64,000 nt of DNA from NCBI GenBank assembly GCA_022843175.1, contig JALHOE010000024.1:1-64000 (forward strand), read 5' to 3'. A program made the translations under genes and the position numbers. The DNA is from Deltaproteobacteria bacterium (GTDB lineage: Bacteria > Myxococcota_A > Polyangia > Polyangiales > JADJMO01). Below are positions 7,192 to 26,572 of this stretch, in pieces; the stretch's first letter is position 1; the number at the start of each line of letters is the position of its first letter. Under the pieces are notes generated by a model. It saw only the letters and a list, made by a program, of their open reading frames with translations, was not told the DNA's origin and did no database searches.

Positions 7192-7575
7192 TTGGCGGAC
7201 GTCCTGGTCGTCGACGATAGCAATGTCATGCGCGACATGATCGTCGCTTGCCTGCGCAGTCTTCCGAACCTCGCGTTCACCCACGCGACAACCGGGCTCG
7301 AGGCTATTGAGCGGCTCTCGCTCAAGAAGTTCGATTTGGTCGTCCTCGATTTGAACATGCCGGACGTGGGCGGAATTGAGGTCGTGGAGTTCGTCCGCGC
7401 CCAAGACCAGCTCCGCGCGCTCCCCATCGTCATCGTCACGACGCGCGGCGACGAGTCGTCGCGCACCCGCGCGCTCGATGCCGGAGCCGATCGCTTCATG
7501 ACGAAGCCGTTCACGCCGGACGCGATCGTCGCCGAAGTCCAAGCATTGCTCGCCTCGGGCCGGCCTACGACGTGA
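7192..7575 (+). CDS. CheY-like response regulator
   Basis: TTG start after 'gaggaacacc'; 'ADVLVVDDSNVMRDM...FDLVVLDLNMPDVGGIEVV...FMTKPFTPDAI'. Confidence 0.85.
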   Translation: MADVLVVDDSNVMRDMIVACLRSLPNLAFTHATTGLEAIERLSLKKFDLVVLDLNMPDVGGIEVVEFVRAQDQLRALPIVIVTTRGDESSRTRALDAGADRFMTKPFTPDAIVAEVQALLASGRPTT

Positions 7576-9584
7576 GTGACCCCGTCGATCTTCGGGAGTT
7601 CGTCTCTGCGTTCGTCACCGAGGCAGCCGAGCATCTCGAGGTCGCGAACTCCAAGCTGCTCCTCATCGAGAGCGCGGCGCGTGGCGGCCAGCCGATGCTG
7701 CGTCACGTGCGAGACGTGTTTCGCGCACTCCACACGATCAAGGGGCTCGCCGCGATGGTCGGCGTCGAGTCGATCGTCACCATCTCTCACCGCATGGAGG
7801 CGATCCTCCGCACCGCCGACCAGGCCTCGACCGCGTTGTCGCTCGATACCATCGACGCCCTTCTCGAGGGGACGCGCGCGATCGAGGTACGCGTCAAGCA
7901 ACTCGCGGATGGACTCCCGGTCGGCGAGCCGCCGGCCTCGCTGGTATTGCGGCTCGACACGCTCGACGCCGAGCCCGAAGCTGCGACGCGCGCGATCACG
8001 CGCGCGACCAGGCTCGATCCGGCGATCGCGCAGAAGCTCTCGGCCGCGGAGCACGAGCACCTCGCCACCGCCTCCGCCGCGGGACAACGCGCGTATCGGG
8101 CCGACTTCTTCCCTTCGCCGGCGCGCGCGGAGCAGGGCTTCAGCATCAACCGCGTACGCGAGCGCGTCTCGGCGATCGGCGAGTTGGTGAAGGTCCTTCC
8201 GTTGTCGGTGCCGGCCACCGAGCACGCGCCCGGCGGGCTCGCCTTCGTGATCCTGGTCGTCACAAGCGCGCTGCCCGCGCAGCTCGCGGCCGCCGTCGGG
8301 ATCGACGCCGACGCGGTGATCGCGCTCGACGCCGAGGTAAAGCCCGAAGTCGCCGCCGAGTCGGACGCGGTCGAGGACGAGCTGATCGTCAACGAGCCGG
8401 CGCGGCGAGGAATCGTGCGGGTCGACGTGAGTCGCCTCGACGAGGCGATGGATCGCCTGTCGTCGCTGGTGGTCAGTCGCTTCCGGCTGTCGCGCGAGGC
8501 GGTTCGCCTCGCCGAAAGGGGCGTGGACGTGCGCACCCTGCAGACGCTCCTCGCGGAGCACTCGCGGCAGCTCCGCGACCTTCGCGCGGCGATCCTCAAA
8601 GTGCGCATGGTGCCGATCGCCGAGGTGCTCGATCGGGTTCCGATGATCGTGCGCAGCCTCCGACGCTCGACGGGCAAGTCGGTTCGACTCGAGATTGACG
8701 GCGGGCACACCGAGCTCGACAAAGCGGTGGCCGAGCGGCTCTTCCCCGCGATCGTGCACCTCGTACGCAACGCGGTCGACCACGCCATCGAGACGCCAGA
8801 TGAGCGCGCTCGGCGTGGGAAGCCCGAGGAGGGGCTGGTCCGCGTCACGTGCACCGAACACTCCAACGCGCGGCTCGTGCTCTCGGTGAGCGACGACGGG
8901 CGCGGCATCGATCGGGAGACGGTCGCGCGGCGCGCAGAAGTGGAGGTCCCGGCGACGGACGCCGAGCTCCTCGACTTGCTCTGTCGCCCCGGCCTCTCGA
9001 CGCGCGACGAGGTCTCAACGGTCAGCGGACGCGGGATGGGGCTCGACATCATCCGTCGCGTCGCCGTCGAGCAGCTCGGCGGCGAGCTCGCCGTCTCGAG
9101 CGTGTGGAGGGTCGGCACCACGTTCACGATGACGGTGCCCCTGACCGTCTCGATCGTCGACGCGTTCACGTTCGAGTGCGCCGGACAACGGTTCGTGGTT
9201 CCGGTCGCGATCGTCGACGAAATCGTCGAGGTCGACGAGGGCGTGGCGACCCGCCTCGCGGGCTCGAAGGGGAACGTGCGCGTGTTCTTTCGCCGCGGCG
9301 AGTCGATCCCGCTGCTCCCGCTGGAGGAGGTGCTGGGCCTCGGCGTGGAACGCGTCGGCGCACGCAAGGCCATCGTCGTGCGCCGCGCCGGCGAGCCGAT
9401 CGCGTTCGCGGTCGATCGAATGCTCGGTCAGCAAGAGGTCGTGGTGCGTCCGCTCGAGGACCCGCTGGTGCAGGTCCCCGGGATCACCGGGGCGACCGAT
9501 CTCGGCGACGGCCAACCGACGCTGGTCGTCGATCTCGTGGCCCTCGGCGGCGTGGTGCGAATGGTGCGTGGGGCGGCCGCATGA
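7572..9584 (+). CDS. cheA: Chemotaxis histidine kinase CheA
   Basis: Hpt 'FRALHTIKGLAAMVG', dimerisation/HATPase 'HLVRNAVDHAIETP', 'GRGMGLDIIRR', CheW-like C-terminus; ATGA-type overlaps with neighbours. Confidence 0.93.
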   Translation: MSDPVDLREFVSAFVTEAAEHLEVANSKLLLIESAARGGQPMLRHVRDVFRALHTIKGLAAMVGVESIVTISHRMEAILRTADQASTALSLDTIDALLEGTRAIEVRVKQLADGLPVGEPPASLVLRLDTLDAEPEAATRAITRATRLDPAIAQKLSAAEHEHLATASAAGQRAYRADFFPSPARAEQGFSINRVRERVSAIGELVKVLPLSVPATEHAPGGLAFVILVVTSALPAQLAAAVGIDADAVIALDAEVKPEVAAESDAVEDELIVNEPARRGIVRVDVSRLDEAMDRLSSLVVSRFRLSREAVRLAERGVDVRTLQTLLAEHSRQLRDLRAAILKVRMVPIAEVLDRVPMIVRSLRRSTGKSVRLEIDGGHTELDKAVAERLFPAIVHLVRNAVDHAIETPDERARRGKPEEGLVRVTCTEHSNARLVLSVSDDGRGIDRETVARRAEVEVPATDAELLDLLCRPGLSTRDEVSTVSGRGMGLDIIRRVAVEQLGGELAVSSVWRVGTTFTMTVPLTVSIVDAFTFECAGQRFVVPVAIVDEIVEVDEGVATRLAGSKGNVRVFFRRGESIPLLPLEEVLGLGVERVGARKAIVVRRAGEPIAFAVDRMLGQQEVVVRPLEDPLVQVPGITGATDLGDGQPTLVVDLVALGGVVRMVRGAAA

Positions 9585-10066
9585 GCACGCTCTACGTCGT
9601 CCTCGAGGTCGCCGATGCGGCGTACATCCTCCCGGCGAGCGAGGTGCGCGAGCTCGAGACGTTCGCCGGAGCGACGCCGGTCCCCGCGGCGGCAGCTTTC
9701 GTGGCCGGCGTCGTGCACATCCGCGGTCGCGTGGTCCCGGTCGTCGATCTTCGTCGCCGCTTCGGGCTCCCGGCCGTCGAGCGGACGCTCGAGACGCGGG
9801 TCGTGGTCACCGAGGTCGGCGACCGCTTGGTCGGCCTGGTGGCGGACCGCGCGCGCGAGCTGGTGCGACCAGCCGCAGAAATTACACCCCCGCCGCGCGT
9901 GATCGCGGAACAAACGCTGGGGTTCGTAAAAGGCATCGTTGAGCTCGATAAGCGGATCTATCTGCTGCTCGATCTCGACCGAATCATCGGTGAGGAGCAA
10001 GACCATGGCGAACGAGACCTCCACCTCGACGACGGCGGGCCTCGACGCCGCGCACTCCCGCGCTGA
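9581..10066 (+). CDS. cheW: CheW-like adaptor
   Basis: [25 protein letters not shown]...[20 protein letters not shown]-terminus runs 62 nt into the MCP gene. Confidence 0.88.
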
Positions 10067-12545
10067 GCGGGTCGCGCGCACCCTGCAAGCGACGCTCGGT
10101 ACCGCGAAGAGCGCCGCCGAATCGTTGGAGCGTGCCGCGACGAACGGTGAGGAGCGCGCCCGCGCGGGCGAAGACGTACGGCGAGCGGTCGAGTCGCTGG
10201 TCGCCGGCGTCGAACAAACCTCAGTCGCCATCGGCTCGATGGCCCGCATGCAGGCGAGCGTCGCCGAGAGCGCGCGTTCGCTGCAGGGCCTGTCCGAGTC
10301 CAACGTGGCAGGCGTGGAGCAGCTGTCCCGCTCGATCGAATCGACCCGCAAGGACGCGGCGCTGCTCGCCTCGTCGGTCGAAGAGGGCGCGGCGACGATC
10401 GAACAGACGACCCGCTCGGTGCGCGGCGTCGCAACCAACGCCGAGGACCTCGCTGCGGCAGCCGAGGAGCTCCTCGCCACGTGCTCGCAGACGAGCAACG
10501 GCATCCGTGAGCTCAGCGCACGCGGCGAAGCGAACGCGAGCACCATCGAGCAGGTCGCGGCGACCCTCGAACAGATGGCCAAGGGCATCGTGCGCCTCGC
10601 GCAAGACGCGCGTGACGTCGGCGAGCGGATGGGCAAGGTCACCACCGACGTCGAGGCGGTCGGCCGGTCGCTCGGCGAAGTCGCGCGCGACGCCACCGAG
10701 ATGTCGTCCTCGGTCGAGGAGACCGCCTCGACCACCGAGGAGCTCGCCCGATCGATCCGCACGGCGGCCGATCAAGCGAAGGCGTTGCAGGCCGACGCGG
10801 CGGAGGCGGCGAGCGCGGTCACCGAGATCGCGGCGTCGGTGGAGGAGGTCGCGGCGACCGCGGAGAAGAGCGCGGCGACGATCGACGCCAACGCAGCCAG
10901 CATCGAACAGCTGTCACGATCGGCCATCGCAAGCGCCCGCGCTGCCGATGAGATTCGTCAACGTTCAGGGGTCAGCGCGACGGCGGCTGCCGACCTCGAG
11001 AAGACGTCGCGGCGCCTCTCCACGTCGACCGAAACGGCGAAGGCCGCGAGCGAGCGCGTCTCGAGCACCGCGCGCGAGGGTGGAGCCGTGGTCACCAAGT
11101 CGATCGCCGGGTTCGTCAAGATCCGCGGCGCGATCTCCGAAGCGGCGACCGTGATCAAAGAGATGGGCAAACGCTCGGAGGAGATCGGCGACTTCGTCCA
11201 GACGATCAACCTCATCGCCGACCGCACGAACCTCCTCTCGTTGAACGCGAGCATCGAGGCCGCCCGCGCCGGCGAGCACGGCCGGGGTTTCGCGGTCGTG
11301 GCCGAGGAGATTCGGGCGCTCGCCGATCGCGCGGCCACCGCCAGCGGTGACATCGGCAAGGTCATTCGAAGCCTCCAGGGCACCTCTCGCGATGCCATGA
11401 GCGCGACCGCCGAGGGCGTGCGCGCCGCCGAAGAGGGCTCGACCCTCGCGGCGGAGGCCGACCGCGCGCTGAGCAGCATCCTCGGCGGGATCGAGGGCGT
11501 CGCGACCGGTGTCCGCGAGGTCTCGGCGGCCATGGACGAGCAGCTTCGTCTCGCGCAGACCGTGAGCGGCTCGACGAGCGAGGTCACCGAGCACGCGCGT
11601 CGAGTCGCGATCGCCGCCGAGGAACAGGCGACCGCGAGCCAGTCGCTCTCCCGCGGCTCCGCGGAGATGCGCCGCAGCGCGAAGCAGACCTCGGAGGCGA
11701 CCGCCGAGCAGGCGCGTGCGCTCCGTGAGTTGGTGAAGATCGCCGGGCGTCTGCGTGGCAGCGCCGAGCAGGTCTCTTCGGCCACGGCCGAGCAGGCGGC
11801 AGCAGCGGGGCAACTCGCCCGTACCGCGCAGCAAATGCGAACGATCACGCATCGAACCGCGAGTGCCATGAATGAGCAGAGCAGCGTCGTCGAGACGGTG
11901 GCCACCAGCGCCAAGGAGGTGCTCACGTCTACCTCGCGCGCCATCGCGGGACTCGGCGAGCAGTCGAAGGGCGCGGTCGAGGTCGCCAGGGCGATGGACG
12001 TCGCCCGCAAAGAGGCGGTCGCGAGCTCGCGCGCCGTCGTCGAACAATCGAAGGCGCTGAGGCAGCTCGAAGAAGCTTCGCGGCAGGTGGCGCTCCTCTC
12101 GACCGAGGTGCGCAAGGCGACCGGCGAGCAAGCCAAGGCGATCGTCTCGCTCAGCGCGGCGAGCGAGGAATCCAAACGAATCGCTCGGCAGAACGCGCGC
12201 GCGCTCGACGAGCAGACCAACACCTTGCGCATGCTCGCCGGGAACCTGGTCAAACAGAACCTCACGATCGCCTCGGTCGCGAGTGCGACCAGCGAGCACA
12301 CCGCCGGCACCGAGCAGCTCCTCGCCGCGATCGCCGAAATGCGCGGTCGTGCGCGAGAGATCGCCGCGCTCATCGCGCAACAGGCGAAGGCTGTGGCCGA
12401 GCTCGCGATGGAGATTCGCGCGACCACAGCCGGAGTCGCCGCGGTGCGCGCATCCACCGAGGAAAACGGTCGCGACCTGCGCGCGGTCCTCTCGGCGATC
12501 GACGAGGCACGGGTGCCCCTCACGGGTAACGGCGGTGCCCGATGA
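10005..12545 (+). CDS. Soluble methyl-accepting chemotaxis protein, 846 aa, no visible TM segment
   Basis: ATG at 10005 (MANETSTS...); hairpin tip '[43 protein letters not shown]'; Ala/Glu/Ser heptads throughout. Confidence 0.88.
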
Positions 12546-14866
12546 CGGGTTCGCCCACGCTCTCCGACAGCGATCGCGCCCAAATCGCTGAACTTCGCGG
12601 CAAGAGCCTCGACGCGAGAGCGCTCATCGATCGCCTCCGGACCGACCGTTGGGCGGTGCGGCGCGCCGCCGTCACCGCGCTCGCCGAGCTCGCCGAGCGC
12701 TCCACCCGAAGCCTCTGCGAGGCGCTCGTGCGGAAGCGCGATCACGAGGCGCAGATCGCCGCCATCGTCGACGCGCTGAGCACGTCGCGCGGCGAGGTCG
12801 TCGCAGACGTCGAGGCGCTCGCGACTCACGACAACCCAGCCGTCGTGTGCGATGTGGCGACGATCCTCGGACGTCGGCGGAGCGTCGCCAGCATCGGGCT
12901 CCTCGGCAAGCTCACCGCCCACGCCGACGACAACGTCGCGGTCGCCGCGGTCGAAGCGCTCGGCCGTATCGGGGGCGATGCGGCGGTCGACGCGCTTCTC
13001 GCGCTGTGCGAGACGCGCTCGTTCTTTCGCGTGTTTCCGGCGATCGACGTGCTCGGTCGCAGCGGAGACGCGCGCGCGACCGAGGTGCTGTTGCGGCTCC
13101 TCGACGACCCGCTCTACGCGCCGGAGGCTGCGCGCGCGCTCGGCCGAACCGGCGACGAACGCGCGCTCGAGGCGCTCGTGCGGCTGCTCGCCCACTCGAC
13201 CGAGGCGCTGGTTCGCGTGGCCGCCGTCGCGATCACCGAGGTCCACGATCGCCTCTACGGCCGGTTCGGCAGCACCCGCCGCCTCTTGGAGCTGCAAGGA
13301 GCCACGAGCCCGATCGCGCGGCTTCGCGATGCGCTCTCGTCGGCCGACGAGCTCGAGGAGACGGCCATCGTCCGCGTCGTCGGGTTGCTCGGCGGCGACC
13401 AGGCTGCCGCTGCGCTCATCGAGCTGGTCACCCGAGGCGAAGGTCGCGCCGTCGCCTCCGCCGAGTCGGTGCTCCGTGATCTCGATCCCCCCGCCCTGGC
13501 GCCGATGCTCGAGGCCATTCGCTGTGGCGACAGCGAGACACGCGCGACGCTGCTGCCGCTGATCGGGGCGCGCGCCACCGACTCGACCGCGCTCGCCGCA
13601 TGCCTTTTGGATCCGTCGCCGCGCGTCCGCGCGCTCGCCGCCGACAGCCTCGCGCGAATGGGCGCGATCGACGCGGTCCCGCCATTGTTCGACGCGCTTC
13701 GCGACCCCGACCAAAGGGTAGCCCAGGCCGCCATCGCGGCGATCCAGTCGCTGGGGAGCGTCGAGACGGAGCGCTTGGCGCTCGAGACCGCAAAGGACCG
13801 CGATCCGGCGGTGCGGCGCGCCGGAATCCGCATTCTCTCCTATTTTGGGTACGCCGCTGCGCTCGAGCCGCTCCTCGATGCGGCGGTCGATCCCGACGAA
13901 CGGGTGCGCGAGGTCGCGCTCGGCGGGCTCCCCCTGCTCGACAGTTCGCGCGCCGACCGGGCGATCGCGTCCGCGCTTCACCACCCGTCGGCCCGCACCC
14001 GCGCGGCCGCCGTTCGCGCGCTCGGGCACGTCGACCGCGCGCGCGACGTGGCCGACGCGTTGATCGCCGCCCTCGCCGATCCAGATCCGTGGGTCCGCTA
14101 TTTCGCCTGTCAGGCGCTCGCGCGGCGTGGTGACGAACGCGCCGTGCCCGCGCTCGTCGCGCGGCTCGACGACGAAGCCGGGCAAGTGCGCGTCGGCGCG
14201 ATCGAGGCGCTGGCCCAGTTCTCCGAGCCCCGTGCGATCGCCGCGCTGACGTCGGCCGCGGAGGGTAGCGACCCCGACCTCCGGCGCGCCGCGATCATCG
14301 GCTTCGGCCTGACCGGCAACGCCGCCGCGTTCCCGATCATCGCGCGCGCGATGCGCGACTCGGATGCCTCGACGAGGCTCGTGGCGGTCTCCGCGCTCGC
14401 GAACCTCGGGGGCACGGGCGTCCTCGACGCCATCGTCCTCGCGACCCGCGATCCCGACGGGTCGGTGGCGAGCGCGGCCCTCAGCGTCCTCGGAGGGCGC
14501 GCAGAGCCGGCGGCTTTCGAGCTGCTCCTTTCGCTCCTCGACGAGCCCTCCACCTCCGACCGCGCGCTCTACGCCATCGCTCAGCCGGTCGTCGGACGGG
14601 TGCACGCGATCGCCGCGGCGTTGACTGCAGCGTCTGGCGAGCTGGCCTCACTCCTCGCCGCCGCGCTCGTACGCATGAAGACCCCCGACGCCAGCGCAGC
14701 GCTCATCGGCGCGCTCTCGTCGCCGACGGTCCGCACGCGTCGCGCGATCGCGAGCGCGCTCTCGGTCGTGCCCCTCCCGGAGCACCGCTCAGCGATGTTG
14801 CACGCTTTGAACGCAGAGCACGACGCGGATGTCCGCAAGCTGCTTCGCAAGGCTCTCAGCGCGTGA
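12542..14866 (+). CDS. HEAT repeat domain-containing protein
   Basis: 774 aa of repeating 'D.R...A...LG..GD..A...L...L.D' helical units; ATG overlaps MCP stop. Confidence 0.85.
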
Positions 14867-14876
14867 CCCACGAACC

Positions 14877-15683
14877 ATGGCGCTACCCATGACGCCACAA
14901 GTGTTCGCGATCCTGAGCGCGCTCATCGAAGAGCAGCTCGGAATCCACTATGAGCATGCCGATGCCAACCTGCTGGCCGACAAGTTGACTCCACGCGCGG
15001 CCGATCGCGGGTTCGAGTCGCTCCTCGACTACTACTACTTCCTTCGTTACGACCCGGAGGCGTCCAGCGAGCTCGCGGCGCTGGCCGACGCACTCGTGGT
15101 CAACGAGACCTACTTCTTCCGCGAGGCCGACCAGCTCGCGGTCTTGGTGTCGATCCTCACCGAGCTCAAAAGACCGGCCCGGGTTTGGTGCGCGGCATCG
15201 TCCACCGGAGAGGAGCCGTACACGCTCGCGATGATGCTTCGCGAGCGGGGCATCGCGGACAAAGTCTCGATCTTGGCGAGCGATGTCAGCACACGAGCAT
15301 TGTCCCGTGCGCGCTCGGCGATCTACCGCGGCCGCTCGCTCCGCGCGCTGCCGGATGCGATGCGGCGACGCCACTTTCAGGTGGAAGGCGACGCTCTTCG
15401 GCTCGACGAATCGATCCGTCGCGCCGTGACGTTTCGCCCGCTCAACCTGTTCGACGACGCCGGCGTGGCCGCGCTGGGTGAATTCGACGCCATTCTCTGC
15501 CGCAACGTGCTGATCTACTTTCGTGATTCCGGTGTTTCGCGCGTCGTCGAGCGCTTGACGCGCCGGCTCGTCAACGGAGGCTACTTGCTGGTCGGGGTCT
15601 CGGAGTCGCTGCTTCGCTTTTCGACGGCGCTGACGTGCGCCGAACGGAGCGGCGTCTTCCTCTACCAGCGAGTCGACTCATGA
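14877..15683 (+). CDS. cheR: CheR-type protein-glutamate O-methyltransferase
   Basis: 'VNETYFFREADQL', 'VWCAASSTGEEPYTLAMML', 'DAILCRNVLIYF'. Confidence 0.92.
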   Translation: MALPMTPQVFAILSALIEEQLGIHYEHADANLLADKLTPRAADRGFESLLDYYYFLRYDPEASSELAALADALVVNETYFFREADQLAVLVSILTELKRPARVWCAASSTGEEPYTLAMMLRERGIADKVSILASDVSTRALSRARSAIYRGRSLRALPDAMRRRHFQVEGDALRLDESIRRAVTFRPLNLFDDAGVAALGEFDAILCRNVLIYFRDSGVSRVVERLTRRLVNGGYLLVGVSESLLRFSTALTCAERSGVFLYQRVDS

Positions 15684-16696
15684 CCGTTCGCGTCCTCGTC
15701 GTCGACGACTCCGCCTTCGCCCGCAAGGTGGTCCGCGAGATTTTGCAGCGGGCACCCGGTATCGAGGTCATCGGCTTCGCGCGTGACGGGCTCGATGCTC
15801 TCGAGAAGATCGGAGAGCTTCGCCCGGACGTCGTCACGCTCGATCTCGTGATGCCGCACCTCGATGGCGTCGGCGTGCTGCGCGCACTGACGATGCCACA
15901 CCCGCCGCGCGTCGTCGTGGTCAGCATGGTGGACGAAGAGAGCGCGCTCGGTGTCGAAGCGCTCCGACTCGGCGCCTTCGACGTCGTGCGCAAGCCGACA
16001 TCGCTCGCGGTCGCCACCCTCTACGACATCGACGAAGAGTTGATTCGGAAGGTACTCGCCGCAGGTGACGCAGGCGTCCGCGCTCCCGTGGTCACGATTG
16101 CACCGATTGAGAAGAGCGCGCTTCGCGCGAGCAATCGGATCGTCGTGCTCGGCACCTCCACCGGCGGCCCTCAGGCGCTGACGCGCCTGGCTCGCGCGCT
16201 GCCGGCAGATTTCCCCGCGCCGATCAGCGTCGCGCTCCACATCCCGGCCGGCTACACGGAGGCGCTCGCGCAACGACTCAACGAGGAGTGCGCGCTCGAG
16301 GTCCTCGAAGCCAGCGACGGACTCGCGATGCGGCCCGGGCGCGTGATCATCGCGCGGGCGGGCGCCCACATGAGGCTCGCGATCGCCGACGGGGTCGACT
16401 GCGTACGGGTCGACGTCCGCCCGGTCGACGCTCTCTATCGCCCGTCGGTCGACGTGCTCTTCGAATCGGCGGCGGCCGTGTTCGGCGCGCGCACGATCGG
16501 CGTGGTGCTCACCGGCATGGGCGACGACGGCACCCGCGGCGCCCGTAAGATCCACGAAGCCGGAGGCACGATCATCACCGAGGCCGAGAGCACCTGCGTG
16601 GTGTATGGCATGCCGCGCGCGGTACACGAGGCCGGCCTGAGCGACGAAGAAGTGCCGCTCGATCGAGTCATCGAAGCAATGGTTCGCCGGCTGTGA
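15680..16696 (+). CDS. cheB: CheB protein-glutamate methylesterase
   Basis: REC 'VLVVDDSAFARKVV...LDLVMPHLDG'; catalytic 'STGGPQAL', 'HIPAGYT', 'GMGDDGTRG'; ATGA overlap with cheR. Confidence 0.93.
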   Translation: MTVRVLVVDDSAFARKVVREILQRAPGIEVIGFARDGLDALEKIGELRPDVVTLDLVMPHLDGVGVLRALTMPHPPRVVVVSMVDEESALGVEALRLGAFDVVRKPTSLAVATLYDIDEELIRKVLAAGDAGVRAPVVTIAPIEKSALRASNRIVVLGTSTGGPQALTRLARALPADFPAPISVALHIPAGYTEALAQRLNEECALEVLEASDGLAMRPGRVIIARAGAHMRLAIADGVDCVRVDVRPVDALYRPSVDVLFESAAAVFGARTIGVVLTGMGDDGTRGARKIHEAGGTIITEAESTCVVYGMPRAVHEAGLSDEEVPLDRVIEAMVRRL

Positions 16697-18156: not shown

Positions 18157-19563
18157 CTTATTGAGGATGTCGACGGCCTGGCCGATGGCGTGCTGGGCGG
18201 AGATCATCATCGCCTCGCCGAGCGTCGGGTGCGGGTGGATGGTGAGCGCCACGTCTTCCGCGAAGGCGGCCATCTCGAGCGCGAGCGAGCTCTCGCTGAT
18301 CATGTCCGTGGCCTGCGGGCCGACGATGTGGACGCCGAGGATCTGGTGGGTCTTCGCGTCGATGACGTGCTTGATGAAGCCGTCGGTCTCCTGGACGGCC
18401 ATCGCGCGGCCCGAGGCGCCGAAGGGCATCTTGCCGATGCGGACCTCGAGGCCCTTCTCCTTGGCCTGCGCCTCGGTCATGCCCACGCTGGCGATCTCCG
18501 GGTCGGTGAAGACCGCGCCCGGCATCGAGACCCAATCGCGCTCGGCTTTGTGACCGGCGATCACCTCGGCGGCGATCTCGCCCTCTTTGATCGCCTTGTG
18601 GGCGAGGAGCGGGGGCTGCGACACGTCTCCGATGGAGTAGACGTTGGGCACGTTGGTGCGGCAGTGCTTGTCGCTCGGGACGTAGCCGCGCTCGTCGACC
18701 TTCACGCCGATCTTGTCGAGGCCGCCGAGCGACTTGCCGTTGGGGCGCATGCCGACCGCGACGAGCACCACGTCGGTCTCGATCGTCTCCTGCTTGCCGC
18801 CAGTGTCGATCTTCACCGCGACGCCGGTCTTCGTCTTCTCGTAGCCGAGCGCCTTGGCGCCCTTGTAGATCTTCGCGCCCTTCTTCGTCATGCGGCGCTC
18901 GAGGACCGCGGTGCAATCCGGGTCGGTGCCGGGGAGCAGCCCGGGCGTGGCCTCGACGACGACGAGCTCGGCGCCGAAGTTCTGGTAGACGCAGCCGAGC
19001 TCGAGGCCGATGACGCCGCCGCCGATGACCAGCAGGCGCTTGGGGACCTCGGGCAGCGAGACGGCCTCGCGGGCGCCGATGATCGTCTTGCCGTCGAACT
19101 TGAAGGTGGGGATCTCGATCGTCGAGCTGCCGACGGCGATGACCAGGTTCTTGAACTCGATCGTCTCTTTGGCGCCCTCTTTGGTGACGACCTCGAGCGT
19201 GTTCTTACCGGTAATGGTCGCGGTGCCGTACATGTGCTCGCCGCCGTTGGCCTTGATGAGGCCCTTCACGCCGCCGGTGAGCTTCTTGACGATGCCGTTC
19301 TTCCACTCCTGCATCTTCCCGACCTCGAGCTTGGGCTCGCTGACTACGATGCCCGTGGCTCCGGCGTGCTTGATCTTGTCGAAGACGTGGGCGTTGGCGA
19401 TGAGCGCCTTGCTGGGGATGCAGCCCCAGTTGAGACAGACCCCGCCGAACTCCTCTTTCTCGATGCAGAGCGTTTTGACCTTGAGCTGCCCGAGCCGGAT
19501 GGCGCACGTATAGCCGCCCGGTCCACCGCCGATCACCACCGTGTCGTAGCTCTTGGTCGCCAT
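18154..19563 (-). CDS. lpdA: Dihydrolipoyl dehydrogenase
   Basis: MATKSYDTVVIGGGPGGYTCAIRLGQL..., 'GGVCLNWGCIPSKALI' redox disulfide, C-terminal 'HIHPHPTLGEA'-like 'TIHPHPTLGEAM'. Confidence 0.95.
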   Translation of the reverse strand: MATKSYDTVVIGGGPGGYTCAIRLGQLKVKTLCIEKEEFGGVCLNWGCIPSKALIANAHVFDKIKHAGATGIVVSEPKLEVGKMQEWKNGIVKKLTGGVKGLIKANGGEHMYGTATITGKNTLEVVTKEGAKETIEFKNLVIAVGSSTIEIPTFKFDGKTIIGAREAVSLPEVPKRLLVIGGGVIGLELGCVYQNFGAELVVVEATPGLLPGTDPDCTAVLERRMTKKGAKIYKGAKALGYEKTKTGVAVKIDTGGKQETIETDVVLVAVGMRPNGKSLGGLDKIGVKVDERGYVPSDKHCRTNVPNVYSIGDVSQPPLLAHKAIKEGEIAAEVIAGHKAERDWVSMPGAVFTDPEIASVGMTEAQAKEKGLEVRIGKMPFGASGRAMAVQETDGFIKHVIDAKTHQILGVHIVGPQATDMISESSLALEMAAFAEDVALTIHPHPTLGEAMMISAQHAIGQAVDILNK

Positions 19564-19629
19564 GTGCGTGCGAGTTACCACGATCGAACGTTGGGGTCAT
19601 CGGGTCTCGTGGGGTACCCTTCCGGGCCG

Positions 19630-21300
19630 GTGACGCGCCGCGTTCTTCTTTTGTTCGCATCGCTGGTTTTGCTCGGCGGTTGCAAGAAGCACCGCGGCGG
19701 CGGTGGTCCGTCGCGCGCGCCGGCCAGCACCTGCCTCAGCATCGTCGGGTGGAACGATCTCCACGGGCAGCTCGAGCCCGACGATCCGCTCGTGGACACC
19801 GCGCGCATCCCGTCCGGCGGCGTGGTCGCGCTGGCCGACCAGGTCGACGCCATCCGCAAGGGCGGCGACACGGTCGTCGTCCTCGACGCGGGCGACCTGT
19901 TCACCGGCCCGATGGAGTCGACGCTCGCCGAGGGCGCACCGGTCATCGCCGCGTACAACGCGCTCGGCGTCGACGCGGCCGCGGTCGGCAATCACGAGTT
20001 CGACTTCGGACCGGTCGGCTACCAACGGGTCATCGCCGCCCCGACCGTGGGTGACGGCGCCGGCCCCGACGGCCCGCGCGGCGCGCTCTTCGCGCGGATC
20101 GGCGAGGCCAAATTCCCGTTCCTCTCGGCCAACCTCCGCTACGAGGACGGCTCCGCGCTCCCCGGCATCAGGCCGCACGTCATCGTCGAGCGCGGCGGCT
20201 TCCGCGTTGGCGTCGTCGGCTACTCCACCAAGGAGACGCCGACGACGACGCTCAAGCCCAACGTCGTCGGCCTCGACTTCGACCACGACGCTGGCAGCCG
20301 CGTGGCCCACAGCGTTCGCACGCTGCGGCTCGCGGGCGCGGCGCCGGTGGTGCTCATCGCGCACGCGTCGCTCGAGGGCGAGCTCCCGCAGGAGCTCGAC
20401 AGCAAGCGCGCGGTGCACGGCGAGCTCGCGCGGCTGCTCGACGACATGGGCAACGACCTGCCCGACCTGGTGATCGCCGGGCACCGTCACGCGTGGATGC
20501 TCGGTCGGGTGCGCAACGTCCCGGTGGTCTCCAGCGACCAGCACGGCGTCGGCTACTCGCGAACGCGCTTCTGCCGCCTCGGCAAGGCGGTGGCGCTCAC
20601 GAGCCTCGAGCGACAGCTCACGTTCGCGACGCAGACACCGGTCAGCGAGCTCGGCCGGCAGATCGCCGCGATCGTCGAGCCCTACCTGCGGAGCGTGCGC
20701 GCGAGCGCCGACGAGGTGATCGCGACCGTCCCGCGCTACTGCATCGCGCAGGGCCCCAACGGCACCGCCCTCGCGGAGCAGATCGCGCGCTCCATGCTCG
20801 AACGCGCGGTCAACGATGGCTTGATCCCGCCCGGCCACGCGGCGGTCGCGGTGGTCAACGCCGGGGGCATCCGCTCGTCGCTCCACGCGGGGACGGTGCA
20901 CTACCGCGATCTGTTCGGGATGCTGCCCTTCGAGAACGCGATCGCGACCTGCACGACCAAGCGCGAGGGGCTCGCGAGGGCGCTGCGAAACCTCACCACC
21001 CGGGTGAGCGTGCGCGACCGGTTCCCCTTCGGCATCGCCGGGGCCAGGGTCCGCGCCCGGCGCACCAAGGACGTGCCGCTCGAGCTCGTCGAGGTCACGA
21101 CGGACATCCGGAGCGACGACGTGACGCTGGTGATCCCCGATTTCCTGCTCTACGGCGGTGACGGTTTTCTCAACGGGCTCACCTGTACCGCGAGTCACAC
21201 CTCGGCGACGCGAATCCGCGACGCGTATCGCACGGTGCTCGCGCGAGAGCCGGGCGGCTGCGACGGCGCGCCGCTCAACGTGAAGATGGAGGCGCTATGA
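19630..21300 (+). CDS. 5'-nucleotidase/UshA-like metallophosphoesterase lipoprotein
   Basis: GTG start VTRRVLLLFASLVLLGGCKK; 'NDLHGQLEP', 'LDAGDLFTG', 'VGNHEFDFG', 'VIAGHRH', C-terminal '5_nucleotid_C'-like 'NAGGIRSSL'. Confidence 0.88.
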   Translation: MTRRVLLLFASLVLLGGCKKHRGGGGPSRAPASTCLSIVGWNDLHGQLEPDDPLVDTARIPSGGVVALADQVDAIRKGGDTVVVLDAGDLFTGPMESTLAEGAPVIAAYNALGVDAAAVGNHEFDFGPVGYQRVIAAPTVGDGAGPDGPRGALFARIGEAKFPFLSANLRYEDGSALPGIRPHVIVERGGFRVGVVGYSTKETPTTTLKPNVVGLDFDHDAGSRVAHSVRTLRLAGAAPVVLIAHASLEGELPQELDSKRAVHGELARLLDDMGNDLPDLVIAGHRHAWMLGRVRNVPVVSSDQHGVGYSRTRFCRLGKAVALTSLERQLTFATQTPVSELGRQIAAIVEPYLRSVRASADEVIATVPRYCIAQGPNGTALAEQIARSMLERAVNDGLIPPGHAAVAVVNAGGIRSSLHAGTVHYRDLFGMLPFENAIATCTTKREGLARALRNLTTRVSVRDRFPFGIAGARVRARRTKDVPLELVEVTTDIRSDDVTLVIPDFLLYGGDGFLNGLTCTASHTSATRIRDAYRTVLAREPGGCDGAPLNVKMEAL

Positions 21301-21770
21301 GGCATGGGTGGTGGTTGTTGCTGGTGCTCGCCGGGTGCTCTTCCAAGCCGAACGCGCAGTCGTGCGCGACGATCGACCGCGAGAGCCGGCCGAAGGTGTC
21401 GCTCACGTGGAAGCTCGACCCGGGTTCGATCGACAACGATCCCCCGCGCGCGAAGGTGAAGCTGCTGGTCGCCGGCGCGGCGAAGGCCGAGGTCGACGTC
21501 GGCGAGCTCTATGGCGACTGCAAGCTCGTCGTGGTCGGCGCGCTCCCGGACGTCCCGGCGCCGGGTTCCAAGGTCACCGAGCTCGTGTGCTCCCACGGCA
21601 ACCGCGAGATGTACGCCTCCGTGGTCTTCGTCGAGGCCGGCAAAATCGTGCTCCGTCGTTACGACCGAGTCGACGAGACGATGAAGCCGGGGATCGACGT
21701 GCAGACGATCGAGACCCCGACGTGCGCCTCCTTCACCGCGGATCTCGCGCAGCAGGCCGGCGAGCTCTGA
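21297..21770 (+). CDS. Hypothetical lipoprotein (157 aa)
   Basis: ATGA overlap with upstream gene; 'MRHGWWLLLVLAGCSS' lipobox. Confidence 0.7.
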   Translation: MRHGWWLLLVLAGCSSKPNAQSCATIDRESRPKVSLTWKLDPGSIDNDPPRAKVKLLVAGAAKAEVDVGELYGDCKLVVVGALPDVPAPGSKVTELVCSHGNREMYASVVFVEAGKIVLRRYDRVDETMKPGIDVQTIETPTCASFTADLAQQAGEL

Positions 21771-21884
21771 TGGCGATGGAGCAGAACGCGCCGCCGTAGC
21801 CTTTTGCCACATCGCCAAAACCTTCGACAGCGGGCGGTTTGCAGCTGCGACACGCGGCATGGTTGCTGCTGAACGCACGCCGAC

Positions 21885-23888
21885 ATGTTCGAAAGCTCGC
21901 ACGCGACGGACGCCGTCGCCGCGCTGTCCGACGTAGCGGCTCGACTGGGGCTGCCGCTCGACCCCCGAGCGGCGCGGCGCGCCCGCGAGCGGGTCGCGCG
22001 CACGAGCGGCGAATGGCAGGCGCACCTGGTCGCCGCGGGCGCGCAGCTCGGCCTGCGCGTCACCTTCATCGAGACCGATCTCGAACGAGCGCAGAGCCTG
22101 GCCGAGGCGCACGGTCCACTGATCGGCTGGGACGACGGCGAACGCCGGTACATCACGCTCGCGGGCCGCGAGAGGGCGAGCTCGGACGACGATCCCCAAA
22201 CCTGGGCGATCGTCGAGCCCGCGCTGCCACTCGATCCGAGGGGCGAGGGCCCGCCCACCCCGCAGCGACGGTTGCTCGAGCTCCTCCGCGACGAGCGCCC
22301 CGATCTCAAGGTGGTCGTCGCGTACGCCGTCGGGATCGGGGTCCTCTCGCTCGCAGTGCCCATCGCGGTGCAGGCGCTCGTCAACAGCGTCGCGTTCGGC
22401 ACGGTGGTGCAGCCGGTGGTGGTCCTGACCCTGATGGTCGCCGTTGCGCTCTCGTTCGCGGGCGCGCTGCGCGTGCTGCAGTCGACCGTCGTGGAGTGGA
22501 TGCAGCAGCGCATGTTCGTGCGCGTCGCGTCCGACATGGCGGCTCGCCTGTCGGCGGTGCGACGCGACGCGCTCGGAACCGCGTACATGCCCGAGCTCGC
22601 GAACCGCTTCTTCGACGTCGTGACCGTGCAGAAGAGCGCAGCGACGCTGCTGCTCGACGGCGTCGCTCTGGTGCTGCAGACGGTCGTCGGGCTGGTGCTG
22701 GTCGCGTTCTATCACCCGCTGCTGCTCGCGTTCGACGCGGTGCTGCTCCTGCTGATCGCGTTCGTGGTCTTCGGGCTCGGGCGCGGCGCCATCGAGACCT
22801 CGATGAAGGAGTCGAAGGCGAAGTACGCGGTGGCGTCGTGGCTCGAGGAGATCGCGCGCCACCCGACGACCTTCCGCTCCGCGCATGGCCGCGCGTTCGC
22901 GCTCGATCGGCTGGACGAGCTCGCCACGCAGTACCTTCAGTATCGCGGCAAGCACTGGAAGATCCTCGTCCGGCAGATCGCCGGCACGAAGGTGCTGCAG
23001 GCGCTCGCGAGCGCTGCGTTGCTGGGCGTGGGTGCGCTCCTCGTGATCCAGCGTCAGCTCACGCTCGGCCAATTGGTCGCGGCGGAGCTCATCGTCACCT
23101 CGGTGCTCGCCGGCATCGCCAAGTTCGGCAAGCACCTCGAGAGCTACTACGATCTCGTCACCGCGATCGACAAGGTGGGGCAGGTCGTCGACCTGCCGCG
23201 CGAGCATGGCGGCGGCGAAACCTTCGCCGACGCCGACACCGGCGTGCGGGTCTCGCTCCGGGCGGTTTGCGTGCGCGACGGCGCGCCCCCGGCCGACCTC
23301 GAGATCGCGCCCGGTGAACGCGTCGCCATCCGCGGGGCCAACGGCTCCGGCAAATCGACGATCGTCGACGTGCTGTACGGCCTGCTCCAGCCCACGAGCG
23401 GCGCCGCGCTGGTCGACGGCATCGACCTGCGGTCGGTCGAGCGGGCGAGCTACCGCGCGCGCGTGGCCGTCGTTCGCGGCAACGAGGCGTTCGACGGCAC
23501 AGTCGCCGAGAACGTGCGCGTCGGACGGCCAACCCTGACCGATCAAGACGTGCGCGACGCGCTGACCGCCGTCGGGCTGATCGACGACGTGCTGGCGTTG
23601 CCCGCAGGTCTGGAGACGAGGATCACGCCGGAGGGCTTCCCGTTGTCGGCCGGACAAACGCGCACGCTGATGATCGCGCGGGCGATCGCCGGCGCGCCGC
23701 GCCTGCTGATCCTCGACGAGGCGCTCGACGGCGTCGACGACACCACGCGGGCGCGCCTTTCGGGCGTCATTTTCTCGCGCAGCGCGCCATGGAGCGTGCT
23801 CGTGACGACCCACTCCCCCGAGGTCTCTGCTCTCTGCGATCGGCGCTACCGCATCGATCGCGGCCAACTCCTGCGAGATGAGGCGTAG
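21885..23888 (+). CDS. ABC transporter, peptide/type I secretion-like, with N-terminal C39-like domain lacking an obvious catalytic Cys
   Basis: TM region followed by Walker A 'GANGSGKST', signature 'LSAGQ', Walker B 'LLILDEALDG', H-loop 'TTHSPE'. Confidence 0.85.
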   Translation: MFESSHATDAVAALSDVAARLGLPLDPRAARRARERVARTSGEWQAHLVAAGAQLGLRVTFIETDLERAQSLAEAHGPLIGWDDGERRYITLAGRERASSDDDPQTWAIVEPALPLDPRGEGPPTPQRRLLELLRDERPDLKVVVAYAVGIGVLSLAVPIAVQALVNSVAFGTVVQPVVVLTLMVAVALSFAGALRVLQSTVVEWMQQRMFVRVASDMAARLSAVRRDALGTAYMPELANRFFDVVTVQKSAATLLLDGVALVLQTVVGLVLVAFYHPLLLAFDAVLLLLIAFVVFGLGRGAIETSMKESKAKYAVASWLEEIARHPTTFRSAHGRAFALDRLDELATQYLQYRGKHWKILVRQIAGTKVLQALASAALLGVGALLVIQRQLTLGQLVAAELIVTSVLAGIAKFGKHLESYYDLVTAIDKVGQVVDLPREHGGGETFADADTGVRVSLRAVCVRDGAPPADLEIAPGERVAIRGANGSGKSTIVDVLYGLLQPTSGAALVDGIDLRSVERASYRARVAVVRGNEAFDGTVAENVRVGRPTLTDQDVRDALTAVGLIDDVLALPAGLETRITPEGFPLSAGQTRTLMIARAIAGAPRLLILDEALDGVDDTTRARLSGVIFSRSAPWSVLVTTHSPEVSALCDRRYRIDRGQLLRDEA

Positions 23889-25187
23889 ATGATCGAGTCG
23901 CATCCCTACCGCGACGTAACGATTCCGGCGATGCGCTTGGTGCGGACCCCCCACAGCGTGCGCGGCCCGGCGCGAATGGTGTCGCTGTTGCTCTTCCTCG
24001 TCGCGATCGCGCTGACCGTGACCCCATGGCAGCAGACGGCGTGGGGCGACGGCCGCGTGATCGCGTACTCCCCGCTCGAGCGCGAGCAGAAGCTCGAGGC
24101 GCCGATCGAGGGCCGCGTGGCCAAGTGGTACGTCCAGGAGGGCTCGGTGGTGAAAGAGGGCGATCCCATCGCCGACATCTCGGACAACGACCCGGACATC
24201 GTCAGCCGGTTGCGCGGCGAGCGAGAGGCGATCGACAAGCGCGTCGAGGCGGCGAAGTCCCGAAAGATCGCCGCCGAGGCGCGGATCAAAGCGCTCGAAG
24301 CGAGCCGCACCGCCGCGCTCTCGGCCGCGAAGCTGCGGGTGGCGATGGCGCGGGCGCGCGTCGTCGCCGCCGACAAGGCCGTGGAGGCGAGCATCGCCGC
24401 CGAGAAGACCGCGAAGCTCAACCTCGAGCGTCAAAAGGCGCTCGTGGAAAAGGGCATTTCGAGCGTGCGCGCGCTGGAGCTTGCGGATCTCGACTACGCG
24501 CGTGCGACGACGGATCTCGACCGCGCGAAGGCCGGCGCCGCGCTCGCCCGCAGCGACGAGCTCGCCATCGACAGCGATCGCTTGAAGGTCGACGCCGACA
24601 CCACGGCGTCGATTGAGGACGCGAAGGCGACCATCGCGCTCGCCGCTGCGGAGGTCGCCAACGCGACCGTCGAGCTCCAGCGCGTCGAGGTGCGGCTCGC
24701 GCGACAGGGCGCTCAGTCGGTGAAGGCGCCGCGCGCGGGCACCATCCTCCGGGTGGTCACCAAGCAGGGCGGTGAAATGGTGAAGGCGGGCGACACGCTC
24801 GCGCTGTTCGTGCCGACGATCACCGAGCGCGCCGTCGAGCTCTGGGTCGACGGTCGCGACGTACCGCTCCTCCGACTCGGCGGCGAGGTGCGCCTTCAGT
24901 TCGAGGGGTGGCCGGCGCTGCAGTTCAGCGGGTGGCCGTCGGTGGCGGTCGGCACGTTCGGCGGGCGTGTCGCGTTGATCGATGCGACCGACGACGGCAA
25001 GGGGCGCTTCCGCGTCCTCGTCGTTCCGGAGCCGACGGAGCCCTGGCCGGCCGCCGCCTACCTGCGGCCGGGGGTGCGCACGCATGGTTGGGCGCTGCTC
25101 GGGCGGGTGCGCCTCGGCTACGAGCTGTGGCGGCAGTTCAACGGGTTCCCGCCGGCGGTGCCCGCTCCGGCGAAGGAGACCAAGTGA
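23889..25187 (+). CDS. HlyD-family membrane fusion/periplasmic adaptor
   Basis: Single N-terminal TM, 'EAPIEGRVAKWYVQEGSVVKEGDPIADI', long coiled coil, 'VKAPRAGTILRV'. Confidence 0.88.
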   Translation: MIESHPYRDVTIPAMRLVRTPHSVRGPARMVSLLLFLVAIALTVTPWQQTAWGDGRVIAYSPLEREQKLEAPIEGRVAKWYVQEGSVVKEGDPIADISDNDPDIVSRLRGEREAIDKRVEAAKSRKIAAEARIKALEASRTAALSAAKLRVAMARARVVAADKAVEASIAAEKTAKLNLERQKALVEKGISSVRALELADLDYARATTDLDRAKAGAALARSDELAIDSDRLKVDADTTASIEDAKATIALAAAEVANATVELQRVEVRLARQGAQSVKAPRAGTILRVVTKQGGEMVKAGDTLALFVPTITERAVELWVDGRDVPLLRLGGEVRLQFEGWPALQFSGWPSVAVGTFGGRVALIDATDDGKGRFRVLVVPEPTEPWPAAAYLRPGVRTHGWALLGRVRLGYELWRQFNGFPPAVPAPAKETK

Positions 25188-26572
25188 TGCGCGCCCTTCT
25201 GCTGCTGCTCGCGTTGCTGCTGCTCCCGCTCTCGGCGCGCGCGGCCGATGTCCCGCTCACCGTCGCCGACGTCATGACGACGCTCGATCGCCACCCGCTG
25301 TTCAACGCCGCGATGAAGGACAAGGCGATCGCCGAGGCCGAGGTGCTCACCGCCACCGGCGGCTTCGACCCGGTGTGGCGTACGCGCGCGGTCTTCATGC
25401 CGCTCGGCTACTACGACCACAAGCGACTCGACACGCTGCTCGTTCAACCGACCGCGATCGGCGGCGCGACGCTGTTTGCCGGCTATCGAATCGGCGTGGG
25501 CAACTTCCCGATCTACGACGGCAAGCTCGAGACGCTCGGGTTCGGCGAGGCGCGCGCCGGCATCAACGTGCCGTTGTGGCGGGACTCGTCGATCGACGCT
25601 CGCCGGGCCGCGCTGTGGTCGGCGAAGCTCGCGCCGCGGATTGCTGACGCTTCGCTGTCGGCGCAGAAGCTCGACCTCGCGCGCTCCGCGGCGCTCCGCT
25701 ACTGGAACTGGGTCGAGGCCGGCAGAGCGCTCGCCGTCGCGCGTGAGCTCCTGAAGCTGGCCGAGGACCGCGACGCGCAGCTCGCGGCGCGGGTGCTCAA
25801 GGGCGATCTCGCCGAGATCGAACGGCAGGACAACCAGCGCGCGGTCCTCGCGCGTCGCGCGGCGGTGATCGCGATCGAACGCGGCTTCCTCAACGCGTCC
25901 TACGAGCTGTCGTTGTTCTACCGCGACGAGAAGGGCGCGATGCAGACGCCGGACGAGACGCGCGTGCCCTCGTCGCTGCCGGAGCCGAGCACGCTCGTCG
26001 TCACCAACGTGAACGACGCGGTGCGAGACGCTATCGCGAAGCGTCCGGAGATCGTTCGACTGGTGGCGATGCGCGAGCAGCTGTCGCTCGAGGCCGAGCT
26101 CGCCGACAACCAGACGAAGCCGGCGTTGGACTTCCAGACCGTCGTTTCGAAGGACTTCGGGCCGGGGCCCGGCTACCTGCGGCCGACCGAGGTGGAGTTC
26201 GCCATCGTCATCGACATTCCCCTGCTCGCCCGCACCGCGAACGGCAAGCTCGCGGCGGCCAACGCCAAGAGCGAAAAGCTCGCCGCGCAACAAAAGCTGG
26301 TCGAAGACCGCATCACCGCCGACGTCAAGGACGCGCTCGCCGCCGAGAAGGCCGCGCGCGAGCGGATCGCCCTGGCGCGCGCCGAGCTCGCCCTCGCCAA
26401 GAAGCTCGCAGACGCGGAGCGAGACGCGTTCGCCCTCGGCAGCAGCACGATGCTGATCGTGAACCTGCGCGAGCAGGCGGTCGCCGAGGCAGCCGTGCGC
26501 GAGGTCGTAGCGCTCGCGGATCACCAACGCGCGGTCGCGGTCTACCGCGCGTCGACCGGGGTGCTCTCATGA
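25187..26572 (+). CDS. TolC-like outer membrane efflux protein
   Basis: Signal peptide MRALLLLLALLLLPLSARA; coiled coil and 'INVPLWRDSSIDARRA'; TGATG overlap with upstream gene. Confidence 0.82.
   Translation: MRALLLLLALLLLPLSARAADVPLTVADVMTTLDRHPLFNAAMKDKAIAEAEVLTATGGFDPVWRTRAVFMPLGYYDHKRLDTLLVQPTAIGGATLFAGYRIGVGNFPIYDGKLETLGFGEARAGINVPLWRDSSIDARRAALWSAKLAPRIADASLSAQKLDLARSAALRYWNWVEAGRALAVARELLKLAEDRDAQLAARVLKGDLAEIERQDNQRAVLARRAAVIAIERGFLNASYELSLFYRDEKGAMQTPDETRVPSSLPEPSTLVVTNVNDAVRDAIAKRPEIVRLVAMREQLSLEAELADNQTKPALDFQTVVSKDFGPGPGYLRPTEVEFAIVIDIPLLARTANGKLAAANAKSEKLAAQQKLVEDRITADVKDALAAEKAARERIALARAELALAKKLADAERDAFALGSSTMLIVNLREQAVAEAAVREVVALADHQRAVAVYRASTGVLS

Follow-up and report, generated by a model that had tools for sequence, protein, structure and literature searches.

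Introduction

Receptors of the MCP type signal through a paired-heptad hairpin with a conserved tip, and they are classified by the number of heptads in it. The described classes run from 24H to 64H (MiST3, PMC6943060; PMC6628036), corresponding to 12–32 paired heptads per arm at ~10.5 Å per paired heptad (PMC6628036). The longest class thus has 32 heptads per arm, beyond which only "a few rare receptors" are mentioned, with no detail given (PMC6943060; PMC6628036). Receptors of this kind also form membrane-free clusters with CheA/CheW baseplates, and in the cytoplasmic arrays of Rhodobacter sphaeroides and Vibrio cholerae these baseplates lie 27–35 nm apart (PMC3964821).

Among described systems, the locus analyzed here comes closest to Che7 of Myxococcus xanthus. 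Its receptor, Mcp7 (MXAN_6962), is cytoplasmic, has no transmembrane (TM) segment, HAMP or other domain, and is found in one or two mobile subpolar clusters; two-hybrid work has used the Mcp7-CheW7 pair as its positive control, and the receptor was classed as 40H at a published length of 821 aa (PMC3945109). For Cpc7, the HEAT protein of the same system, a review that cites Darnell et al. 2014 reports an interaction with CheY7 by which development is regulated (PMC11514114). Here, we analyze an Mcp7-type receptor from a myxococcotal genome whose two coiled-coil arms are each nearly twice as long as those of the longest described class.

Results

The window carries the Che7 gene cluster

Seven adjacent genes were annotated on the forward strand of the window (the whole 64,000-nucleotide stretch of contig JALHOE010000024.1 that was analyzed).

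7192–7575, + strand: CheY, single-domain response regulator and CheY7 orthologue (PF00072; 75.8% identity over 124 aa to M. xanthus CheY7).
7572–9584, + strand: CheA with Hpt, dimerization, ATPase and CheW-like domains (Pfam; 52.6% over 669 aa to M. xanthus CheA7).
9581–10066, + strand: CheW, with a frame overlapping the MCP start by 62 nt (PF01584; 52.4% to M. xanthus CheW7).
10005–12545, + strand: MCP, soluble Mcp7 orthologue of 846 aa from an ATG start, probably a full-length hairpin (Pfam, register, orthologues, AlphaFold).
12542–14866, + strand: HEAT-repeat protein, Cpc7 orthologue (HEAT_2 PF13646, E=8e-80; 46.6% to M. xanthus Cpc7).
14829–15683, + strand: CheR methyltransferase, start uncertain, with CheR7 similarity from 14877 (PF01739; 57.8% to M. 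xanthus CheR7).
15635–16696, + strand: CheB methylesterase with receiver, with CheB7 similarity from 15686 (PF01339, PF00072; 59.2% to M. xanthus CheB7).

The order CheY-CheA-CheW-MCP-HEAT-CheR-CheB matches the locus of an M. xanthus strain (L073) gene by gene at 46.6–75.8% identity. Judged by its sequence, the locus belongs to the Che7 system already described and is not a new one; the original prediction had not recognized this. The start of the HEAT-repeat gene overlaps the MCP stop by 4 nt (ATGA), and Pfam matches to the window HEAT protein are of HEAT/ARM type only. A fatty acid desaturase adjoins the cluster in Myxococcus and Pyxidicoccus loci and their close kin only (L073:12264-13238) and is absent near the window cluster, so it is not a defining feature of Che7 across the phylum. 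Downstream, at 18190–26572, a 5'-nucleotidase-like protein is followed by genes for an ABC exporter, an HlyD-type adaptor and an outer-membrane efflux protein, the last three forming a type I secretion-like set. The host genome (9.75 Mb) encodes just two other MCP signalling domains (C258 and C30), few for a genome of this size.

An alignment of the HEAT proteins of four clusters was used to search 84,980 species genomes, which identified 45 loci, all but one of which (L108) match Che7 genes. The MCP gene lies upstream of the HEAT gene in 45/45 loci, in most of them with the 4-nt stop/start overlap, and CheY was found in every locus extending far enough upstream. Nearly all loci belong to Myxococcota, with a few labelled Comamonas, Planctomycetota or Bdellovibrionaceae; at least the Comamonas record (L080, Comamonas sp. 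KCTC 72670) nests within Myxococcus in the tree and is therefore probably mislabelled or contaminated. When plasmid records were searched with tblastn, none covered 80% of the MCP, and one partial match led to a cluster on plasmid 2 of Gemmatirosa kalamazoonensis, a record that is unannotated, where CheY, CheA, CheW, MCP, HEAT, CheR and CheB occur in the same order. Its MCP (688 aa) gives a gapless alignment that runs from the tip almost to either end of the chain.

The M. xanthus receptor itself appears to be longer than published. From the conserved ATG, its frame (L073:5416-7968) encodes 850 aa with the tip at 423, whereas an internal GTG gives 821 aa, which is the published length; the published start may thus lie 29 residues too far in. 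Mcp7 shares with the window receptor its orthology, the same seven-gene order and the lack of TM, HAMP or sensor domains, and differs in being annotated as 821 aa and class 40H rather than 846 aa and ~58 heptads per arm. This 40H class counts the conserved part alone.

A symmetric receptor with no TM helix or sensor domain

The MCP was divided into the following parts.

10056–11273, + strand: N-terminal arm of continuous heptads, approximately residues 18–423 (constant heptad phase; predicted AlphaFold helix from residue 8).
11157–11384, + strand: signalling tip, residues 385–460, with the turn glutamate E424 at 11274–11276 (MCPsignal; orthologue conservation; structure matches).
11277–12512, + strand: C-terminal arm of continuous heptads, residues 425–836 (register; predicted AlphaFold helix to residue 836).

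The turn glutamate E424 has 423 residues before it and 422 after it. The CheA/CheW-binding tip motif [12 protein letters not shown] begins at residue 418 and is invariant or nearly so across orthologues (L071 has D for E), and the tip region matches the structures of TM1143 (2ch7) and Tsr. A tip at about residue 417, as originally proposed, was therefore right to within a few residues. Across the full 846 aa, Pfam and hydropathy analysis identified neither TM helices nor a PAS, GAF or other sensor domain, including in the N-terminal 400 aa, where such a domain would have spoken against the proposed hairpin. The sole Pfam domain is MCPsignal (PF00015, residues 385–529, 140.9 bits against a gathering cut-off of 34.6), and the highest 19-residue Kyte-Doolittle mean is 1.16, which leaves no TM candidate. 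The entire chain contains a single proline (P838).

Pfam and PDB sequence matches to the MCP are confined to approximately residues 288–569, and its M. xanthus orthologue is filed as 40H. Both facts favor an alternative in which the hairpin is of normal length (~20–22 heptads per arm, 40H/44H) and the distal extensions form separate, unpaired coiled coils or scaffolds. The register, length variants and structural models described below bear on this alternative.

The heptad register is continuous in both arms

Register was analyzed in 45 aligned sequences including the window protein (~29 independent at 80% identity). The averaged hydrophobic period is 3.50 residues in both arms, with a normalized power at 3.50 of 73.8 (N arm) and 73.3 (C arm) and just 0.2–0.6 at 3.60 and 3.67. 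Between a point ~20 residues from the tip and residues 18 and 830, local heptad phase varies by no more than a few tenths of a residue; the steady register spans ~58 heptads per arm. Counted from E424, core positions of either arm fall at distances 2 and 5 modulo 7, which makes the register mirror-symmetric about the tip. Most of the 45 sequences have no internal indels between approximately residues 18 and 836. Against a hairpin of normal length, the phase is unbroken at the boundary which that alternative proposes, and one-sided indels are nearly absent. As no residue-by-residue mirror correlation of core hydrophobicity was present between N and C arms, the evidence for pairing is one of length and register rather than of side-chain complementarity.

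The ends of the arms were located using leave-one-out log-odds of heptad-specific composition. By this score the arms of the window protein comprise 419 and 412 residues, or ~60 and ~59 heptads; these lengths are estimates, the score being the third of three rules tried. The original prediction of a hairpin approaching 60 heptads per arm agrees with this score and with the unbroken register, and is also borne out by the equal shortening of the arms and the AlphaFold fragment described below; the coiled-coil and register analysis that it called for returned the 3.50 period at constant phase in both arms. Its figure of 20–30 heptads per arm for normal MCPs was roughly correct, with the described range, 12–32, being slightly wider (PMC6628036). 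Judged by heptad count, the receptor falls outside the 24H–64H classes (12–32 paired heptads), with which it shares the paired-heptad hairpin and the conserved tip; it has ~58 heptads per arm where the longest class has 32. Length, register and symmetry, like the synteny described above, are directly visible in the sequences.

Natural variants shorten both arms together

Arms that are packed on each other must shorten together, and natural members of the family differ in length, with about 44, 49, 50 or 58 heptads in each arm. Leave-one-out N/C arm lengths are 340/339 in L084, 350/356 in L090 and 308/313 in Gemmatirosa. By the same score, the median difference between N and C arm length is 1 residue with a correlation of 0.85, and less even arms occur in L085 (333/370) and L107 (418/375). 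With the chosen starts, the proteins have 414–438 residues before the tip and 412–429 after it, the exceptions being the short proteins L084 and L090. As these two are sisters in the tree, they may share one shortening event; Gemmatirosa represents a separate lineage. The three variants with jointly shortened arms argue against unpaired distal extensions. In L084 (5731–5856) and L090 (5626–5772), basic N-terminal tails containing Lys, Arg, Gly and Pro replace the missing helix, and these could act as a tether, for instance to nucleic acid.

Structure prediction favors a long two-helix hairpin

AlphaFold was used to model the full-length receptor and a tip-centered fragment. The full-length model (35 sequences) was poor, with a mean pLDDT of 69 and a pTM of 0.42, and comprised helices 8–179, 235–610 and 667–836. 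Its low-confidence gaps (~181–231 and ~610–666) occupy mirror positions, and these breaks in both arms would suit the normal-length alternative. A fragment spanning both doubtful stretches (residues 150–698, 549 residues, 32 sequences) was instead predicted as two unbroken helices (fragment residues 2–272 and 274–548) with a sole break at the tip, giving 39 heptads per arm, with a mean pLDDT of 82 and no residue below 50. The gaps in the full-length model read as a size artefact of the prediction. With a pTM of just 0.33, the fragment model is firm in helix content but does not predict long-range packing with confidence.

Foldseek matched both models to MCP hairpins in the PDB, including a soluble Thermotoga maritima receptor (3g67) and a cytoplasmic domain (2ch7). 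The former (Tm14; 3g67/3g6b), which is not known to carry a sensor domain, is likewise soluble and has a signalling coiled-coil hairpin of ~213 residues, in a chain about a quarter as long as the window MCP. A normal 40H/44H hairpin combined with an unrelated N-terminal fold was also considered and rejected, given the register, the symmetry and the fragment model. Taken with the unbroken phase and the length variants, the continuous helices of the fragment make a normal-length hairpin with unpaired extensions very unlikely. We favor a single symmetric hairpin over the full length of the receptor, with a probability of roughly 0.8; its helices and its hairpin fold are predicted features.

Methylation-type sites and a Glu-Gln grid on the arms

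Two sets of glutamate-containing pairs were mapped on the arms.

10380–10847, + strand: N-arm methylation-type Glu pairs at residues 126, 154, 182, 238 and 280 (motif count, conservation).
11538–12470, + strand: C-arm grid of core Glu-Gln pairs every 28 residues (conservation, motif count).

Using the consensus [ASTG]2xx[EQ]2xx[ASTG]2, 8 methylation-type sites were identified in the window protein compared with 3.5 ± 1.7 in heptad-preserving shuffles (P=0.019). This is a modest excess, in keeping with the repeated methylation-like sites originally described on the flanks, whose composition is also as described. Several of these sites are conserved in position, and the N-arm pairs at 154, 182, 238 and 280 (−270, −242, −186 and −144 from the tip) are among the best-conserved sites of the family. 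With consensus sites and the genes for both CheR and CheB present in the sequence, the receptor is putatively subject to reversible methylation.

The C arm shows a superperiod of 28 residues, with prominent lags of 28, 56, 84 and 112. Its grid consists of EQ at residues 512, 540 and so on to 736, followed by EH 764, QQ 792 and EN 820. The grid glutamine occupies a core position and is 92–100% conserved at nine consecutive sites; in the window protein, 10/11 glutamines at core positions of this type fall on the grid (P about 1e-7). The Gemmatirosa MCP retains the grid as EQ, EQ, DQ, EQ, EQ, EQ, EQ, EQ, ET. By alignment, the T. maritima receptor also has the first pair, which suggests that the grid repeats an ancestral layer.

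A stack of duplicated adaptation regions had been suggested as an alternative to one long hairpin, and the superperiod and its conserved EQ pair bear this out in part for the C arm. They could mean that this arm was lengthened through tandem duplications of an adaptation unit of four heptads, mainly as a means of adding methylation sites. However, few C-arm pairs fit the methylation consensus, the best-conserved consensus sites sit on the N arm, and a nearly invariant glutamine in a core position reads as a structural layer. We consider duplication of an adaptation unit unlikely; the EQ grid may be structural rather than adaptational.

Discussion

The Che7 system and its named receptor Mcp7 are already known. 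What is new, on sequence evidence, is an architecture of ~116H and ~61 nm conserved across Myxococcota, including M. xanthus, together with a divergent version in Gemmatimonadota. We found no description of this architecture, its length class, the symmetric variants, the EQ grid or the PAS-HEAT relative in a literature search that covered mostly papers available without subscription.

In the full-length hairpin that we favor, each chain would form a helix of ~58 heptads, turn at E424 and return as a second helix of equal length packed antiparallel to the first. Two such chains would make a four-helix rod of ~61 nm (58 paired heptads at ~10.5 Å each), whose tip would recruit CheA and CheW into a cluster free of membrane. 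The distal arms would serve as a shaft, with most of its methylation-type Glu pairs in the N arm and, in the C arm, a polar Glu-Gln layer at intervals of four heptads. The CheR and CheB of the same operon would set the packing of the shaft and, through it, kinase activity. The dimer, its array, its methylation and the docking of the HEAT protein are inferred parts of this model. Since there is no ligand domain, either the shaft itself or a protein docked to it would have to detect the stimulus, and the adjacent HEAT solenoid would be the first candidate for such a protein.

Input from a partner protein, as the original prediction proposed, is plausible, with the HEAT protein as the obvious candidate. 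The HEAT protein would then bind the distal shaft, alter its packing and replace the missing ligand domain, and the HEAT gene always adjoins the MCP gene, with the 4-nt overlap in most loci. The best hint of sensory input, as judged from sequence and in one case, is an N-terminal PAS_4 domain on the Gemmatirosa HEAT protein (L109:7290-9968; 29.9 bits against a cut-off of 23.1, E=6.8e-7), which makes the HEAT protein a candidate input; in the MCP of the same cluster, Pfam again identified no sensor domain. On the other hand, Pfam identified no sensor domain on the HEAT protein of either the window or M. xanthus, a report of Cpc7 interacting with Mcp7 was not found in the literature searched, and the interaction that is reported for M. 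xanthus is with CheY7 (PMC11514114). An input role is a real possibility that we hold at somewhat less than even odds.

The reported binding of Cpc7 to CheY7 means that the HEAT protein may equally be an output. In this case it would be the target of CheY, and the receptor would sense a state of the cytoplasm, physical or metabolic, by way of its shaft or its methylation. The Cpc7-CheY7 interaction and developmental role given in the review (PMC11514114) favor this arrangement, as does the presence of CheY wherever a locus extends far enough upstream. The PAS fusion is less simply explained by it, and sensing by the shaft is hypothetical. We put an output role close to an even chance; the two roles carry nearly equal weight and are not mutually exclusive.

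A broader proposal, which we advance tentatively and regard as doubtful in its entirety, is that these receptors form a ~116H class without ligand domain, in which a 61-nm shaft with regularly spaced polar layers assembles into an unusually thick array free of membrane, and sensing falls to a separate HEAT solenoid (carrying PAS in Gemmatimonadota) that would read or clamp the shaft. Membrane-free clustering on CheA/CheW baseplates, as in R. sphaeroides and V. cholerae, is inferred for Mcp7-type receptors; compared with the 27–35 nm of those arrays, 61-nm rods would give a much thicker sandwich, perhaps 60–120 nm depending on overlap. Receptor length governs how thick an array is and which receptors can belong to the same one. 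The sensorless length variants are a natural experiment on how far a signal reaches in a four-helix coiled coil and on array formation without a membrane. For work on M. xanthus Che7, the family yields a definite prediction of structure, and it gives grounds for re-examining the start codon of Mcp7.
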